Of a stretch of DNA of 64,000 nt, positions 1,537-32,115 are shown one piece after another (the stretch's first letter is position 1; every line of letters begins with the position of its first letter). The stretch is taken from NCBI RefSeq assembly GCF_039697315.1, contig NZ_CP155619.1, forward strand, positions 5,146,001 to 5,210,000, written 5' to 3'. Below the pieces are notes generated by a model. That model saw only the letters and a list, made by a program, of their open reading frames with translations, had not been told where the DNA came from and searched no databases. The DNA is from Pseudomonas abietaniphila (lineage in GTDB: Bacteria; Pseudomonadota; Gammaproteobacteria; Pseudomonadales; Pseudomonadaceae). The translations under genes and the position numbers were made by a program.

Positions 1537-2505
1537 ATGGCCGTGCAAGACCTGCTGTCCCAGGATGAAATCGACGCGCTGTTGCATGGCGTGGACGATG
1601 GTCTGGTGCAGACCGAAAGCGTTATCGAACCCGGCAGCGTCAAGAGTTACGACCTGACCAGTCAGGACCGCATCGTCCGTGGACGCATGCCGACCCTGGA
1701 AATGATCAACGAGCGTTTCGCCCGCTACACCCGCATCAGCATGTTCAACCTGCTGCGTCGCTCTGCCGACGTGGCGGTGGGCGGTGTGCAAGTGATGAAG
1801 TTCGGCGAATACGTGCACTCGCTCTATGTGCCGACCAGTCTGAACCTGGTGAAGATCAAACCGCTGCGCGGCACCGCGCTGTTCATTCTGGACGCCAAGC
1901 TGGTGTTCAAGCTGGTGGACAACTTCTTCGGTGGCGACGGCCGCCACGCCAAGATCGAAGGCCGTGAATTCACGCCGACCGAGCTGCGGGTGGTGCGCAT
2001 CGTCCTCGATCAGGCGTTCATCGATCTGAAAGAAGCCTGGCAGGCGATCATGGAAGTCAATTTCGAGTACATCAACTCGGAAGTGAACCCGGCCATGGCC
2101 AACATCGTCGGCCCGAGCGAAGCGATCGTGGTATCGACCTTCCACATCGAGCTCGATGGCGGTGGTGGCGATCTGCACGTGACCATGCCGTATTCGATGA
2201 TCGAGCCGGTACGCGAGATGCTCGACGCCGGTTTCCAGTCGGATCTGGACGATCAGGACGAGCGCTGGGTCAACGCCTTGAAACAGGACGTGCTCGACGT
2301 GGCGGTGCCGATGAGCGCCACCGTCGCCCGTCGTCAGCTGAAATTGCGCGACGTGCTGCACATGCAGCCCGGCGATGTGATTCCGGTGGAACTGCCGGAA
2401 CACCTGATCATGCGCGCCAACGGGGTGCCGACGTTCAAGGTCAAGCTGGGTTCGCACAAGGGCAATCTGGCCCTGCAAGTGGTCGAACCGGTAGAACGCC
2501 GCTGA
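1537..2505 (+). CDS. fliM: Flagellar motor switch protein FliM
   Basis: 322 residues, full length. The extreme N-terminus carries the CheY-P docking peptide (DLLSQDEIDALLHG, residues about 5-18). A CheC-like middle domain that binds FliG and a C-terminal SpoA domain (about 245-315, with RDVLHMQPGDVIPVELPE) that pairs with FliN follow. FliM is the C-ring component that changes rotation when CheY-P binds. The docking peptide closely resembles repeats found in the CheA linker of this same genome (see findings). Confidence 0.97.
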   Translation: MAVQDLLSQDEIDALLHGVDDGLVQTESVIEPGSVKSYDLTSQDRIVRGRMPTLEMINERFARYTRISMFNLLRRSADVAVGGVQVMKFGEYVHSLYVPTSLNLVKIKPLRGTALFILDAKLVFKLVDNFFGGDGRHAKIEGREFTPTELRVVRIVLDQAFIDLKEAWQAIMEVNFEYINSEVNPAMANIVGPSEAIVVSTFHIELDGGGGDLHVTMPYSMIEPVREMLDAGFQSDLDDQDERWVNALKQDVLDVAVPMSATVARRQLKLRDVLHMQPGDVIPVELPEHLIMRANGVPTFKVKLGSHKGNLALQVVEPVERR

Positions 2506-2581: not shown

Positions 2582-3046
2582 ATGGCTGATGAAAACGAAA
2601 TGAATTCCACAGACGACCAGGCACTGGCCGACGAGTGGGCGGCTGCCCTGGGTGAAGCGGGAGAGGGTGGTCAGGCTGATATCGACGCACTGCTGGCCGC
2701 CGATGCCGGGAATTCCTCCACCAACCGTCTGGCGATGGAAGAGTTCGGCAGCATGCCGAAGAACAATGCCCCGGTGACGCTGGACGGTCCGAACCTGGAT
2801 GTGATCCTCGACATTCCGGTGTCGATTTCCATGGAAGTGGGCAGCACCGACATCAACATCCGCAACCTGCTGCAACTCAACCAGGGCTCGGTGATCGAGC
2901 TGGATCGTCTCGCGGGTGAGCCGCTGGATGTATTGGTCAACGGCACGTTGATCGCCCACGGTGAGGTGGTGGTGGTGAACGAGAAGTTCGGCATTCGCCT
3001 GACCGATGTGATCAGCCCGAGCGAACGCATCAAGAAGCTGCGTTAA
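2582..3046 (+). CDS. fliN: Flagellar motor switch protein FliN
   Basis: 154 residues: an acidic N-terminal extension of about 60 residues, then a SpoA domain (about 75-150: VILDIPVSISMEVG, LLQLNQGSVIELDRLAGEPLDV, VNEKFGIRLTDV). FliN forms the base of the C-ring with FliM and helps guide export substrates. The N-terminal stretch QADIDALLAA (about residues 31-40) resembles the CheY-binding peptide of FliM. A 76-bp gap separates it from fliM; fliO starts on the base after its stop. Confidence 0.96.
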   Translation: MADENEMNSTDDQALADEWAAALGEAGEGGQADIDALLAADAGNSSTNRLAMEEFGSMPKNNAPVTLDGPNLDVILDIPVSISMEVGSTDINIRNLLQLNQGSVIELDRLAGEPLDVLVNGTLIAHGEVVVVNEKFGIRLTDVISPSERIKKLR

Positions 3047-13110: not shown

Positions 13111-13485
13111 ATGAAAATCCTCATCGTTGATGACTTCTCAACGATGCGGCGGATCATAAAAAACCTGTTGCGTGACCTTGGGTTCACCAACACGGCCGAA
13201 GCAGATGACGGTACCACCGCATTGCCGATGCTGCAGAGCGGGGCCTTTGATTTCCTGGTGACTGACTGGAACATGCCTGGCATGTCCGGCATCGACTTGC
13301 TGCGTCAGGTGCGTGCCGATGAACGCCTGCGTCATCTGCCGGTGTTGATGGTGACTGCCGAGGCCAAGCGCGAGCAGATCATCGAGGCCGCTCAGGCCGG
13401 CGTGAACGGCTACGTGGTGAAGCCATTCACCGCACAGGTGCTCAAAGAAAAGATCGAGAAGATATTCGAGCGCGTCAATAGCTGA
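13111..13485 (+). CDS. cheY: Chemotaxis response regulator CheY
   Basis: 124 residues, single receiver domain: acidic pair in ILIVDDFS, phospho-acceptor Asp in [11 protein letters not shown], Thr in MVTAEA and Lys in VVKPF. CheY-P carries the signal from CheA to FliM. The start is the ATG giving MKILIVDD, the usual CheY N-terminus. However, the ribosome-binding site TTGGAGG at 13086-13092 is better spaced from an in-frame TTG at 13099, which would add four residues (LDKN). cheZ follows 19 bp later. Confidence 0.95.
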
Positions 13486-13504: not shown

Positions 13505-14293
13505 ATGGATTCCAAAGATTCGACAATGGGTGACTTCGAGTCGACCCTGAAGAAACACGCACAGGAACTCGTCGCCAGCCTTGAAAAAGGCAAGTTCGGC
13601 GACGCCGTGCAACTTATCCATGAGCTTAATCAGACCCGGGATCGCGGCCTGTATCAGGAAGTTGGCAAGCTCACGCGTGAACTCCACAGTGCGATCGTCA
13701 ATTTCCAGATTGACCCGCATATGCCGCAAGCCGAAGAAGTGTCCCAGATCACCGATGCCACCGAGCGCCTGTCGTATGTGGTCAGGCTCACGGAAGGTGC
13801 GGCCAACCGCACCATGGATCTGGTGGAGCAAAGCACGCCTTTGATGAACGGCCTCAGTGCCGACGCCAAGGCGTTGAGTGCCGATTGGGGGCGCTTCATG
13901 CGTCGCGAGATCGGCGCCGAAGAGTTTCGTGATCTGGCCCGCCGCGTCGAAGGTTTTCTGACGCGCAGCGAGAAGGAGACCCATGAGGTCGCCAGCCACC
14001 TGAACGACATTCTGCTGGCTCAGGATTATCAGGACCTGACCGGTCAGGTGATCAAGCGCGTCACGCAGTTGGTGACGGAAGTGGAGAGCAATCTGCTCAA
14101 GCTCGTGCTGATGGCCAGCCAGGTCGATCGCTTTGCCGGGATCGAGCACGATCAGGAAGTGTTCCGTAAGCAAAAAGAAGAAGAAAAACTTCATTCCAAG
14201 GGTGAAGGTCCGCAGATTCATGCCGATAAACGTGAAGACGTCGTATCCGGTCAGGATGATGTAGACGATCTGCTATCCAGCCTTGGCTTCTAA
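13505..14293 (+). CDS. cheZ: CheY-P phosphatase CheZ
   Basis: 262 residues, predicted as a long helical hairpin. The catalytic-region motif AQDYQDLTGQVIKRV lies at about residues 172-186, and the C-terminal CheY-tethering peptide is present (DDVDDLLSSLGF at the very end). CheZ dephosphorylates CheY-P. A Lys/Glu-rich linker (about 220-238) separates core and tail. The tail shares the D-x-[FIV]-[DE]-x-LL pattern with FliM, FliN and the CheA linker repeats. Confidence 0.95.
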   Translation: MDSKDSTMGDFESTLKKHAQELVASLEKGKFGDAVQLIHELNQTRDRGLYQEVGKLTRELHSAIVNFQIDPHMPQAEEVSQITDATERLSYVVRLTEGAANRTMDLVEQSTPLMNGLSADAKALSADWGRFMRREIGAEEFRDLARRVEGFLTRSEKETHEVASHLNDILLAQDYQDLTGQVIKRVTQLVTEVESNLLKLVLMASQVDRFAGIEHDQEVFRKQKEEEKLHSKGEGPQIHADKREDVVSGQDDVDDLLSSLGF

Positions 14294-14423: not shown

Positions 14424-16715
14424 ATGAGCTTCGGCGCCGATGAAGAAATCCTTCAGGATTTTCTGGTAGAGGCCGGCGAGATTCTGGAGCAGTTGTCCGA
14501 GCAGTTGGTCGAGCTGGAAAGCCGACCTGACGATGCGGACCTGCTCAATGCAATTTTTCGCGGTTTTCACACTGTAAAAGGGGGCGCCGGCTTCCTCCAG
14601 CTCAACGAGCTGGTTGAATGCTGTCACATCGCCGAAAACGTGTTCGACATCCTGCGCAAAGGTGAGCGCCGGGTCGACTCGGAGCTCATGGACGTCGTGC
14701 TCGAAGCGCTGGACACCGTCAACAGCATGTTCGGTCAGGTCCGCGAACGTTCGGACATCACACCGGCCACACCTGAGTTGCTCGCCGCGCTGTCGCGTCT
14801 GGCAGAGCCTGCGTCGGCTGACGAAGCAGCGGCTGCGCCTGCTCCGGTGGTCGAAGCGGTTGCCGAAGCGCCGTCCGAAGACATAACCGACCAGGAATTT
14901 GAACAACTCCTGGATTCGCTGAACGCCGTCAAGGCCCAAGCAGCCGGTGCTGCGGTGTCGGTGCCAGCACCTGACGCGCCTGTGTCGACGCCTGCTCCAG
15001 CGGCTGATGCGGCCAGCGACGAAATCACCGACGCTGAATTCGAATCGCTGCTCGATCAACTGCACGGCAAAGGCCAGTTTGCGGCCGATGCCGTGGTGCC
15101 TGCGGCCGCTGCCGCACCCGCGGCGCAACCTGCCAGCGATGAAATCACCGATGACGAATTCGAAGCGTTGCTGGATCAACTGCACGGCAAAGGTTCGTTT
15201 TCGCCCGACGCCAGCGCCGCTCCTGCTGCTCCAGTGGCGCCTGCTGCTGCGACCGACGCCAAGGCCGCTGCATCGGATGAAATCACGGACAACGAATTTG
15301 AAGACCTGCTGGATCAACTGCACGGCAAGGGCAAGTTCGAGCCTGCGGTAGCGGCTTCTGCAGCCACGGCCACTGCGCCGGCCAAGAAAGCCGAGCCTGC
15401 GAACGTTGAGCCACCGAAAGCCGAACCGGCCAAGCCGGCTGCTGCGTCTGCCGCTGCCGCACCTGCCAAGGCCGCTCCGGCACCTGCTGCTGCCCCCGCG
15501 GCGGCACGGGCACCGGCGCCGGTCGCCGAGAAGGCACCGACCGAGGCCGAAACCACCGTGCGCGTCGACACCGCGCGGCTGGACGAAATCATGAACATGG
15601 TCGGCGAACTGGTGCTGGTGCGTAACCGGCTGGTGCGCCTGGGCGCCAACAGTTCGGACGAAGCCATGTCCAAGGCCGTGTCCAACCTGGACGTGGTCAC
15701 CGCTGACCTGCAGACGGCGGTGATGAAAACCCGCATGCAGCCGATCAAGAAAGTGTTCGGTCGCTTCCCGCGACTGGTTCGCGATCTGGCACGTCAGCTG
15801 AAGAAAGAAATCAACCTTGAACTGGTGGGTGAAGAAACCGACCTGGACAAGAACCTGGTCGAGGCACTGGCCGATCCGTTGGTGCACTTGGTGCGCAACG
15901 CGGTGGACCATGGCATCGAATCGCCGGAAGAGCGCGAAGCTTCGGGCAAGGCCCGGGGCGGTCGCGTGGTGCTCTCGGCGGAACAGGAAGGCGACCACAT
16001 CCTGCTGTCGATTTCCGATGACGGCAAAGGCATGGACCCGGCGGTACTGCGCGCAATCGCGGTCAAGCGCGGGGTCATGGACAAGGATGCGGCGGACCGT
16101 CTGAGCGACACCGACTGCTACAACCTGATCTTCGCGCCGGGCTTCTCGACCAAGACCGAGATTTCGGATGTGTCGGGCCGTGGCGTGGGCATGGACGTGG
16201 TGAAAACCAAGATTGCCCAGCTCAACGGCTCGATCAATATCTACTCGACCAAGGGCCAGGGTTCGAAGATCGTCATCAAGGTGCCGTTGACCCTGGCGAT
16301 CATGCCGACCCTGATGGTGATGCTGGGCAACCAGGCGTTCGCCTTCCCGCTGGTCAACGTCAACGAGATCTTCCACCTCGACCTGTCGACCACCAACGTC
16401 GTCGATGGCCAGGAAGTGGTGATCGTGCGCGACAAGGCACTGCCGCTGTTCTACCTCAAGCGCTGGCTGGTCAGCTCGGCCGCGCACGAGGAACAACGCG
16501 AAGGCCACGTGGTGATCCTCTCGGTCGGCACTCAGCGCATCGGCTTCGTCGTCGATCAGCTCGTGGGTCAGGAAGAAGTGGTCATCAAACCGCTGGGCAA
16601 GATGTTGCAAGGTACGCCAGGCATGTCGGGCGCCACCATTACCGGTGACGGCCGCATCGCCCTGATTCTCGACGTACCGAGCATGCTCAAGCGTTACGCC
16701 GCGCGGCGTATTTGA
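14424..16715 (+). CDS. cheA: Chemotaxis histidine kinase CheA
   Basis: 763 residues. The N-terminal HPt domain has the phospho-accepting His49 (FRGFHTVKGGAGF). Residues about 130-370 are an Ala/Pro-rich linker with four copies of an EITDxEFExLLDQLHGKG-type motif, near residues 152, 197, 237 and 283. The dimerisation (about 375-440), HATPase (HLVRNAVDHGIE, DDGKGMD, GRGVGMDVV) and C-terminal CheW-like domains follow. I see no conventional globular P2 domain. A ribosome-binding site TAGGAG precedes the ATG. It phosphorylates CheY and CheB in the receptor array. Confidence 0.97.
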   Translation: MSFGADEEILQDFLVEAGEILEQLSEQLVELESRPDDADLLNAIFRGFHTVKGGAGFLQLNELVECCHIAENVFDILRKGERRVDSELMDVVLEALDTVNSMFGQVRERSDITPATPELLAALSRLAEPASADEAAAAPAPVVEAVAEAPSEDITDQEFEQLLDSLNAVKAQAAGAAVSVPAPDAPVSTPAPAADAASDEITDAEFESLLDQLHGKGQFAADAVVPAAAAAPAAQPASDEITDDEFEALLDQLHGKGSFSPDASAAPAAPVAPAAATDAKAAASDEITDNEFEDLLDQLHGKGKFEPAVAASAATATAPAKKAEPANVEPPKAEPAKPAAASAAAAPAKAAPAPAAAPAAARAPAPVAEKAPTEAETTVRVDTARLDEIMNMVGELVLVRNRLVRLGANSSDEAMSKAVSNLDVVTADLQTAVMKTRMQPIKKVFGRFPRLVRDLARQLKKEINLELVGEETDLDKNLVEALADPLVHLVRNAVDHGIESPEEREASGKARGGRVVLSAEQEGDHILLSISDDGKGMDPAVLRAIAVKRGVMDKDAADRLSDTDCYNLIFAPGFSTKTEISDVSGRGVGMDVVKTKIAQLNGSINIYSTKGQGSKIVIKVPLTLAIMPTLMVMLGNQAFAFPLVNVNEIFHLDLSTTNVVDGQEVVIVRDKALPLFYLKRWLVSSAAHEEQREGHVVILSVGTQRIGFVVDQLVGQEEVVIKPLGKMLQGTPGMSGATITGDGRIALILDVPSMLKRYAARRI

Positions 16716-19753: not shown

Positions 19754-20542
19754 ATGAGAGTCTGGGCAGTAGCCAATCAGAAAGGCGGGGTCGGCAAGAC
19801 CACCACCTCAATCGCTTTAGCCGGGTTGCTGGCCGAGGCGGGCAAGCGCGTGGTCGTGGTCGACCTGGACCCTCACGGCTCGATGACCAGTTATTTCGGC
19901 CACAACCCCGATGCGCTGGAACACAGTTGTTTCGACCTGTTCCTGAATAAAGGCGCCGTGCCGGATGGGTTGCCCGGCCAGTTGTTGTTGCCCACCAGTG
20001 ACAAACGTATTTCCCTGCTGCCTTCCAGCACCGCGCTCGCCACCCTTGAGCGCCAGTCGCCGGGCCAGAGCGGGCTGGGCCTGGTGATTGCCAAGAGCCT
20101 TGCGCAGCTGTGGCAGGATTTCGATTACGCGATCATCGACAGCCCGCCGTTGCTGGGCGTGTTGATGGTCAACGCGCTGGCGGCCAGTCAGCAACTGGCG
20201 ATTCCGGTGCAGACCGAGTTTCTGGCGGTCAAGGGCCTGGAGCGCATGGTCAACACGCTGGCGATGATCAACCGTTCGCGCAAGGTTCCGCTGCCGTACA
20301 CCATCGTGCCGACGCTGTTCGACCGCCGCACGCAGGCGTCGATGGGCACCTTGAAGTTGTTGCGCGACAGTTTTCCTGAACACGTGTGGAACGCCTTTAT
20401 TCCGGTGGACACGCGCTTGCGTGATGCCAGCCGTGCGGGCGTCACGCCGTCGCAGTTCGACAACAAGAGCCGGGGAGTGTTGGCGTATCGTGCGTTGCTC
20501 AAGCACATGCTCACCGAACAGCTTGTGGGACAGGTGGCCTGA
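19754..20542 (+). CDS. ParA/MinD-type ATPase of the chemotaxis cluster (ParC-like)
   Basis: 262 residues with the deviant Walker A motif NQKGGVGKTTTS (about 7-18), the switch VVVDLDPHGSMTSYFG and Walker B YAIIDSPPLLG. Such ATPases encoded inside che operons (ParC in Vibrio) position the chemosensory array at the cell pole. It lies between motD and a CheW-domain scaffold, which supports that role over plasmid partitioning; no ParB is nearby. Polar targeting is inferred from family and context. Confidence 0.88.
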   Translation: MRVWAVANQKGGVGKTTTSIALAGLLAEAGKRVVVVDLDPHGSMTSYFGHNPDALEHSCFDLFLNKGAVPDGLPGQLLLPTSDKRISLLPSSTALATLERQSPGQSGLGLVIAKSLAQLWQDFDYAIIDSPPLLGVLMVNALAASQQLAIPVQTEFLAVKGLERMVNTLAMINRSRKVPLPYTIVPTLFDRRTQASMGTLKLLRDSFPEHVWNAFIPVDTRLRDASRAGVTPSQFDNKSRGVLAYRALLKHMLTEQLVGQVA

Positions 20543-20543
20543 C

Positions 20544-20660
20544 ATGTCCGCTGATCGTTTAATCCCGGTCAATGCGCCTGCGCGCTCAAGTCGGCCAGCT
20601 GTTCAGCCGATATCGGGTATAGGCGGTAATCGCATCACTAATTTTCGGGCTCCCGTATGA
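20544..20660 (+). CDS. Possible 38-residue leader peptide coupled to the CheW-domain gene
   Basis: An ATG starting 2 bp after the ParA-like stop (MSADRLIPVNAPARS...) runs to a TGA that overlaps the next gene's ATG as ATGA. The downstream gene has no clear ribosome-binding site of its own (TCGGGCTCCCGT before its ATG), so a coupled upstream frame is plausible. The peptide has no recognisable domain. It may be translated only to deliver ribosomes, or may not be a gene. Confidence 0.33.
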   Translation: MSADRLIPVNAPARSSRPAVQPISGIGGNRITNFRAPV

Positions 20661-21610
20661 ACCGCCCTCTGGACATCGCATCACGACCGCAACTGGCGCT
20701 GCAGAACTACCTCGACGCGTTGCTTCAAGACGCCACCGAAGAACTGGAAGCCGTCGAAAGCATCGATGAGTTTCAAGCGGCCGTGCTCGAAGAGCAGGCT
20801 CACGATGCACGCATGCGTTCGGCCGTTGCCGAAGCCGTAGCGGCGGCCGTCCCGGTCAGCCGACCTGCGCCGGTGTCGCTGGCGTTCACGCCTGAGCCTG
20901 TCGCACGACTGGCGACCGTTCGCGAGACAGCACCGCTGGCCAGACCGCTTGCTGACCCCGTGACGACCCAATTCCTTGAAACGCCGGTTATTCTGCCGCC
21001 GGTGATCGCACCTCCCTTGATCGCTCCCGCCGTCGTCGAACCGGTCACTGCGGAACCGACGGTGGGACTGGTCGAGCCCGTGGCCGACGTGCACTTGCCG
21101 GCGCAACGCACGCCAACTCCGCCGCCTACGTCCGATGAGCGTCCGGCCTGGGCAGACGAGCCGTTCGAATGCCTGCTGTTCGATGTCGCCGGGCTGACCC
21201 TGGCGGTGCCACTGGTGTGTCTGGGTTCGATCTATCCATTGGCCGGGCATGACCTGACGCCGTTGTTCGGGCAACCGGACTGGTTCCTCGGGATTCTGCC
21301 CAGTCAGGCCGGCAACCTGAAAGTGCTGGATACCGCCCGCTGGATCATGCCGGACCGCTACCGCGACGATTTTCGTCAGGGCTTGCAGTACGTCATCTCG
21401 GTTCAGGGCTACGAGTGGGGATTGGCGGTGCATCAGGTCAGCCGCTCGCTGCGCCTGGACCCGAAAGAAATCAAATGGCGCACCCATCGCGGTCAACGTC
21501 CGTGGCTTGCCGGGACGGTGATCGAACACATGTGTGCGTTGCTGGACGTGTCCGAACTGGCCGAGCTGATCGCCAGCGGTGCGGTCAAGCAGATGCAGGC
21601 TCGTAAATAA
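20657..21610 (+). CDS. CheW-domain scaffold protein (ParP-like)
   Basis: 317 residues. The N-terminal half (about 1-165) is low complexity, rich in Pro, Ala and Val, with a short helical start (ALQNYLDALLQDATEELEAVES). The C-terminal half (about 168-312) is a CheW-type domain (FECLLFDVAGLTLAVPLVCLGSIY...FLGILPSQAGNLKVLDTARW). Family members next to a che-cluster ParA (ParP in Vibrio) link the polar ATPase to CheA arrays. The only possible start is the ATG at 20657 because a stop lies just upstream in frame. Confidence 0.87.
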   Translation: MNRPLDIASRPQLALQNYLDALLQDATEELEAVESIDEFQAAVLEEQAHDARMRSAVAEAVAAAVPVSRPAPVSLAFTPEPVARLATVRETAPLARPLADPVTTQFLETPVILPPVIAPPLIAPAVVEPVTAEPTVGLVEPVADVHLPAQRTPTPPPTSDERPAWADEPFECLLFDVAGLTLAVPLVCLGSIYPLAGHDLTPLFGQPDWFLGILPSQAGNLKVLDTARWIMPDRYRDDFRQGLQYVISVQGYEWGLAVHQVSRSLRLDPKEIKWRTHRGQRPWLAGTVIEHMCALLDVSELAELIASGAVKQMQARK

Positions 21611-30913: not shown

Positions 30914-32115
30914 TCGATTTCTGGCTAGCGGCCGGCCTGCTGTTGCTGGTGGCCCTGAGTTTTCTGCTGATTCCTCTGGTGCGTGGTCGTCGCGCTCAAA
31001 GCGAAGAAGATCGCACAGCCCTTAACGTCGCCTTGTATCAGGAACGTCTGGCCGAACTGCAAGCGCAGCAGGCTGAAGGTGTTTTGTCGTCATCGCAACT
31101 GGACAGTGGTCGCGCCGAAGCTGCCCGTGAGTTGCTGGCTGACACCGAAGGCGCCGCGCCCGAGCAGGTCTCGCGCCTGGGCAAACCGCTGCCGTTGCTG
31201 ATCGCGGTGCTGGTGCCCGTGCTGGGGCTGGGGCTGTACCTGCATTTTGGTGCGAGCGACAAGGTCGAGTTGTCACGTGAATTCGCGCAGCCTCCGGGCT
31301 CCCTGGCGCAGATGACTGATCGTCTGGAGCGTGCGGTCAAGGCCCAGCCGGATTCGGCCGAGAGCATTTACTTCCTTGCCCGCACGTACATGGCGCAAGA
31401 TCGCCCGGCCGACGCGGCGAGCATGTTCGAGCGCGCGGTAGGGCTGGCTGGGCGTCAGCCAGAGTTGCTTGGGCAGTGGGCACAGTCCCTGTACTTCGCC
31501 AGCAACAAAACCTGGACTCCGCAGATCCAGGCGTTGTCCGACGAGGCGTTGAAACTTGATCCCAAGGAGGTCACCAGTCTGGGCCTGAAGGGCATCAATG
31601 CCTTCGAAGGCCAGCGGTATCAGGAGGCAGTGGATTACTGGAAGCGGCTACTGGCGGTGCTGCCGCCCAACGATCCGTCGCGTTCGGCGCTGGAAGGTGG
31701 CATTGCGCGCGCCAGTGACAAGCTGGTGCAGAACGGCGGCACCGTACAGGACACGCAACCGGTCGCCGCTCAAGGTGCGCGCCTCAAGGTTCACGTTACG
31801 TTATCCGATGCGCTCAGATCCAAGGTGCAGTCGGGCGACACGGTCTTCATCTTCGCCCGCGCCGTGTCGGGTCCGCCCGCGCCGTTGGCGGTCAAGCGCG
31901 TGACCATCGCCGACCTGCCGGTGGACGTTGAACTGACGGACGCCGACGCGATGATGCCGCAGCTGAAACTGTCGAACTTTCCGGAAGTCCAACTGGTTGC
32001 CCGGGTATCCCGAGCGGGCCAGCCCACCGCCGGTGAGTGGATCGGTCGCAGCCAACCGTTGCCCAGCAACGTGACTGCCCGGCAGGCCTTGACCATCGAC
32101 AGCCCCGATCAGTAA
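30910..32115 (+). CDS. ccmI: Cytochrome c maturation TPR protein CcmI (CycH)
   Basis: 401 residues. Two membrane helices (about 3-23 and 97-115) flank a cytoplasmic loop. The periplasmic part has TPR-like helices ([29 protein letters not shown]) and a C-terminal beta-rich domain ([27 protein letters not shown]). CcmI captures the C-terminus of apocytochromes for the lyase complex. It overlaps the ccmH stop by ATGA. Confidence 0.94.

Follow-up and report, generated by a model that had tools for sequence, protein, structure and literature searches.

The window, a stretch of 64,000 nucleotides of Pseudomonas abietaniphila DNA, contains a cheA gene (14424..16715, + strand) whose product, a protein of 763 aa, was recognised by its Pfam domains: P1/Hpt at residues 8-99, the P3 dimerisation domain at 377-436, the P4 ATPase at 484-623 and the P5 CheW domain at 630-757. 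We refer to this CheA as F6-type, a label of our own, assigned by match strength together with gene order. The + strand also carries cheY (13111..13485), whose best PDB match is 3to5, titled V. cholerae CheY3, and homologues of parC (ParA-like, 19754..20542) and parP (with a CheW-like C-terminal domain, 20657..21610), both detected with Pfam and by profile search. The CheA linker, residues 131-375, is 245 residues long and comprises 82 Ala and 29 Pro, in agreement with the Ala/Pro-rich linker described in the initial annotation.

Four copies of a short peptide are found in this linker, with the consensus I-[TS]-[DE]-x-E-F-[DE]-x-L-L-D-x-L-H-G-K-G, the I being preceded by [DE]. All were located by pattern match on the + strand: repeat 1, DITDQEFEQLLDSLNAVK (14880..14933, residues 153-170), in which the (L)HGKG tail is missing; repeat 2, EITDAEFESLLDQLHGKG (15021..15074, residues 200-217); repeat 3, EITDDEFEALLDQLHGKG (15141..15194, residues 240-257); and repeat 4, EITDNEFEDLLDQLHGKG (15279..15332, residues 286-303). 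Their start-to-start distances are 47, 40 and 46 residues; the initial annotation gave about 40-45. The core of the motif, [DE][FIV][DE]xLL, was observed 4 times in the linker, against a mean of 0.0012 and a maximum of 1 in 20,000 shuffles of it. The four repeated peptides announced in the initial annotation are therefore confirmed as a real observation.

The motif was then followed in other CheAs. Among the best 80 of at least 577 loci returned by a genome scan (79 of the 80 are titled Pseudomonas), every one has exactly four copies, with a median spacing of 41 residues and repeat scores higher than any among 13,360 shuffled frames; an earlier, stricter pattern had overlooked weaker copies and ten of these loci. 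Copy number, whose variation the initial annotation proposed to check, is thus constant among near relatives, but it does range from 1 to 4 across the class. There, 184 Gammaproteobacteria genomes yielded 70 regions counted as F6-type, from which L128, L142 and L152, where the CheA frames are short or masked, were then dropped (two of these three have motif copies in another frame). All 68 F6-type CheAs of the class sample and window carry one to four copies, among them L163, which is cut at its N-terminal end; the CheA of G131 (L182, 384.6 bits) was first taken as an outgroup and joined the F6 set only once its motif and a ParC had been noticed, and the next CheA below it, at 364.5 bits, is without motif. 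One, two, three and four copies were found in 6, 23, 31 and 8 CheAs by pattern, and in 7, 21, 32 and 8 by profile score. Of the species identified by name, P. aeruginosa carries four copies and Aeromonas caviae carries three, whereas in Photobacterium toruni there is a single copy, besides a degenerate one seen by eye.

A phylum sample of 80 genomes returned 26 new loci, in which the motif was present in 6/6 CheAs with an F6-like P3 signature and in 0/19 others; it was also present in the CheA of G010, a genome already in the class sample, where this signature is absent. No motif was found in nine class outgroup CheAs (a tenth, L192, was omitted since its linker was not found), nor in the two named outgroups, Deferribacter and Proteus. 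Overall, 0 of 29 distinct non-F6 CheAs have it, G091, common to two outgroup sets, being counted once. The last copy lies at a median of 84 residues from P3. When 37 linkers were aligned alone, every near-invariant column fell inside the motif, and in an alignment of 66 linkers with flanks a single conserved proline column was outside it. We conclude that, among the CheAs examined, the repeats are a class feature of the F6 type.

The repeats occupy the position, between P1 and P3, of the P2 domain of E. coli-type CheA, of which they would also share the function proposed below; in contrast to that CheA, the F6 linker has short repeated peptides and no detected globular domain. With E values up to 1 allowed, Pfam matched neither P2 nor a CheY-binding domain in the window CheA. 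Across 66 linkers 85 Pfam families were matched, and neither domain is one of the 25 found most often, the 25th of which matches 2 members. However, Pfam found P2 in only 1 of 8 non-F6 control CheAs, so that the point is carried by a PDB profile search and by composition. A profile of 37 linkers, run against the PDB with E values up to 1, had no match; as a positive control, one non-F6 CheA matched the P2 chains 1a0o and 1fwp in a plain PDB search. Outside the motifs, F, W, Y, I, L, M and C make up 3.5% of 9,630 linker residues, too few for a folded domain. The earlier statement that no globular P2 is present is thus borne out by Pfam, by composition and by the profile search, the approach from which a contrary result had been expected if P2 existed. 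Published descriptions differ in part. In the portions of PMC11978298 consulted, the P. putida CheA is treated as carrying the Pfam CheY-binding domain, of which Pfam gives none in the window CheA, and PMC7534058, in the parts available, describes Vibrio CheA with a P2; the CheA examined here for comparison is that of Photobacterium, and the names listed by a protein search for a Vibrio CheA were of Colwelliaceae type. A 2023 survey (PMC10782961) reports P2 missing from over half of CheAs, and names no CheY-recruiting substitute in the passages at hand.

A weak Pfam match to SHOCT (PF09851) was observed at 15132-15182 of the window, covering repeat 3. Its score on this repeat is 25.0 bits for a cut-off of 27 (28.4 for an N-terminal piece), and, with E allowed up to 1, 58 of the 66 linkers gave a SHOCT match, as would suit repeats that are SHOCT-like helices with an oligomerising role. 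We hold this to be very improbable: the match spans just 17 of the 28 model positions, where it resembles the I-T-D-x-E-F-E helix start, and it is internal, at residues 237-253 of 763, instead of C-terminal. The SHOCT accession carried by many Pseudomonas CheAs probably reflects the repeats, and no SHOCT domain.

The initial annotation had likened the repeats to peptides of FliM (LSQDEIDALLHG), FliN (GQADIDALLAA) and the C-terminus of CheZ (QDDVDDLLSSLGF), all of which are present in the window as it described them, on the + strand. The FliM N-terminus, MAVQDLLSQDEIDALLHG, lies at 1537..1590 and the FliN segment at 2669..2701, both read from the sequence; the CheZ peptide, at 14252..14290, aligns to the CheZ tail of 1kmi_Z. 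The FliN copy begins at about residue 47 of its open frame (whose start may not be the true one), near the N-terminus and not at it. Over the 346 open frames of at least 80 aa in the window, the core pattern occurs eight times: four times in CheA, once each in FliM, FliN and CheZ, and once in a minus-strand frame at 31021, so that it is nearly restricted to partners of CheY. In shuffled sequences the mean was 0.68 and the maximum 4; the enrichment is inflated by the fact that the pattern was selected after the sequences were seen. In the 70 class-wide neighbourhoods, the core was found in 66/70 CheAs, 56/61 CheZs, 3/36 ParPs and 24/7537 other frames, some of the latter being pieces of FliM or CheA, and in none of 65 CheYs, 56 CheBs and 49 ParCs.

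The known peptides of this kind, the FliM N-terminal (1f4v, 1u8t) and CheZ C-terminal (1kmi) ones, share the core with the CheA repeats and belong to the same flagellar-chemotaxis cluster. The CheA copies likewise have the acidic-hydrophobic-acidic-x-L-L arrangement, their predicted helix being seen in L148 only (see below). They differ in being internal and repeated in the kinase, in having F and not V/I in the core, and in adding conserved residues on both sides, I-[TS]-[DE] before the core and D-x-L-H-G-x-G after it; nothing like the LHGKG tail is present in the FliM peptides examined. A 13-position profile built from 177 CheA copies gave FliM 1.3 bits, below the 99.9% null of 4.4; two unrelated frames scored higher than FliM, and CheZ scored lower, outside the best 14. 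Homology of the repeats to FliM or CheZ was accordingly rejected, as the trained profile does not find them above chance: what is claimed is likeness, which would be convergent, and not descent. The likeness put forward in the initial annotation therefore stands for the six-residue core, but does not extend to the full CheA motif. One repeat, searched as a 20-residue peptide, had no match in the PDB. The E. coli CheZ C-terminus is termed a CheY-binding peptide in the parts of PMC12270135 seen.

The reading that we favour, as rather more probable than all others together, is that CheY is docked by the repeated peptides, which stand in for P2. In F6-type CheA, P2 would have gone and its place would have been taken by one to four short helical peptides in a disordered linker, four in Pseudomonas. 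Each copy would dock CheY on the surface used by the FliM and CheZ peptides, the alpha4-beta5-alpha5 face, and the copies would keep several CheY molecules near the P1 phospho-histidine, allowing fast phosphotransfer; after CheY phosphorylation, the motor and CheZ would compete for that same face. That CheY is the ligand, which of its faces is bound, and that multivalency explains the presence of several copies are our inferences. In an alignment of 49 rows, CheY residues I96, A99, Y107, K110, P111 and K120 are invariant; the face that holds them is the one on which FliM and CheZ dock. On the broader proposal our opinion is evenly balanced: the F6 kinases of Gammaproteobacteria may have swapped the globular P2 for an array of peptides mimicking the downstream targets of CheY, such that kinase, motor and phosphatase compete for a single CheY face, and ParP possibly for some of the copies. 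If true, a large class of CheA without P2 would have a concrete answer to how CheY is recruited, a repeated peptide, and copy number would be a natural gain knob for phosphotransfer. A literature search, for which subscription papers were mostly out of reach, returned no title or abstract opening describing CheY-docking repeats in a CheA linker.

Region L148 offered a single-chain model, as a single stop codon separates its cheY and cheA frames. The read-through chain CheY-P1-linker was folded with AF2 from 49 rows, seven of which cover CheA. CheY and P1 were modelled with confidence, and most of the linker had a pLDDT below 50. The motif was modelled as a helix at 380-391, with a block mean pLDDT of 88 at 381-390 when CheY is in the chain; the CheA part folded without CheY, from seven rows, gave the same helix with means of 69 and 70 in overlapping blocks. 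The rise with CheY is modest, and the comparison is by pLDDT alone, between blocks that coincide inexactly and alignments that differ slightly. Mixed alignments A5 and A6, in which P1 or linker rows fell on CheY columns, were left out. A structural comparison of the read-through model gave, among the matches listed (50 rows each), the CheY part only. L148 is also one of three regions (L147 and L148, from G020 and G152, and L154, from G086) with cheY before cheA and no CheZ match within the region fetched.

The main published rival, which the initial annotation did not consider, concerns ParP. According to the parts of PMC5706961 and PMC7534058 available, the CheA linker of Vibrio contains a LID, a region that interacts with the AIF domain of ParP and is confined to systems with ParC/ParP; the available text of PMC7534058 places it between P2 and P3. 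The repeats would then be LID copies binding ParP-AIF and anchoring the array at the pole, CheY binding being absent or secondary. They do resemble the Vibrio LID in lying ahead of P3 in the linker and in belonging to systems in which ParC/ParP are frequent: in the 70 F6 regions, some of which end at contig ends, ParC was identified in 49, and ParP in 36 to 43 depending on the method. Moreover, nearly all conserved linker columns lie in the motif, so that a conserved LID should contain it. The LID was compared by its description only, and ParP itself had no match in the PDB.

The restriction to ParC/ParP systems does not hold for the motif, however. Whole-genome searches for both proteins were done in 30 genomes, most of them picked because one or both genes had not been seen near cheA. 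ParC matches fell in two groups, at least 280 bits (true ParC) and below 200 bits. Eight genomes (G001, G008, G020, G023, G024, G137, G152 and G172), from seven families and 91-100% complete, retain the motif; ParC is absent from them and their best ParP match stays below 34 bits. Seven of their regions contain CheW-like frames, all scoring as CheW, and the short L136 has none. G154 is also without ParC, its masked linker keeping it out of the count. In other genomes, no ParP match above 34 bits accompanied ParC matches of 280-306 bits (G010, G052, G131, G147, G173) or 365-399 bits (G095, G139, G142). This means that the ParP profile may miss divergent ParPs, and the absence of ParC is therefore the firmer half of the evidence. 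The HG tail is about as common in the CheAs of the eight genomes (11 of 18 copies) as in all the rest (102 of 159), ParC/ParP having been checked in 30 genomes. As the motif persists where ParC is absent and ParP undetected, it is unlikely that ParP alone accounts for it. This rival is weakened, and we consider it unlikely, although ParP may share some of the copies. CheY docking would give the linker stretch reported as the ParP-binding LID a different or an additional function. In L127 (G161), a ParP-like frame of 199 aa (101 bits) was observed, ParC being absent.

Other partners fit the distribution as well, since repeats found in every F6-type CheA examined could serve any universal one. 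Binding to CheB, CheV or CheW, or folding onto CheA itself, with a role in array packing or kinase control, can thus be envisaged, and according to the part of PMC11978298 consulted, P2 in other CheAs docks CheB besides CheY. Against this, a plasmid-borne operon of Photobacterium retains a single copy although cheB is absent from the plasmid stretch seen, and the core pattern in the window is common to FliM, FliN and CheZ. We regard these partners as doubtful, somewhat more so than ParP, and retain CheY docking as the preferred reading. The plasmid stretch itself, from Photobacterium toruni (L225, 5833-10405), holds an F6-type set of cheY, cheZ, cheA, cheW and a chemotaxis protein gene, with no cheB, parC or parP annotated.

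Finally, ParP has a short peptide of its own. The N-terminal half of ParP is said to bind ParC, according to the available parts of PMC5706961. An N-terminal motif Y-[LFI]-[DENQ]-x-L-[LF] is present in 34 of 41 ParP frames, as YLDALL at 20708-20725 in the window, and resembles the same kind of short peptide as the CheA repeats.
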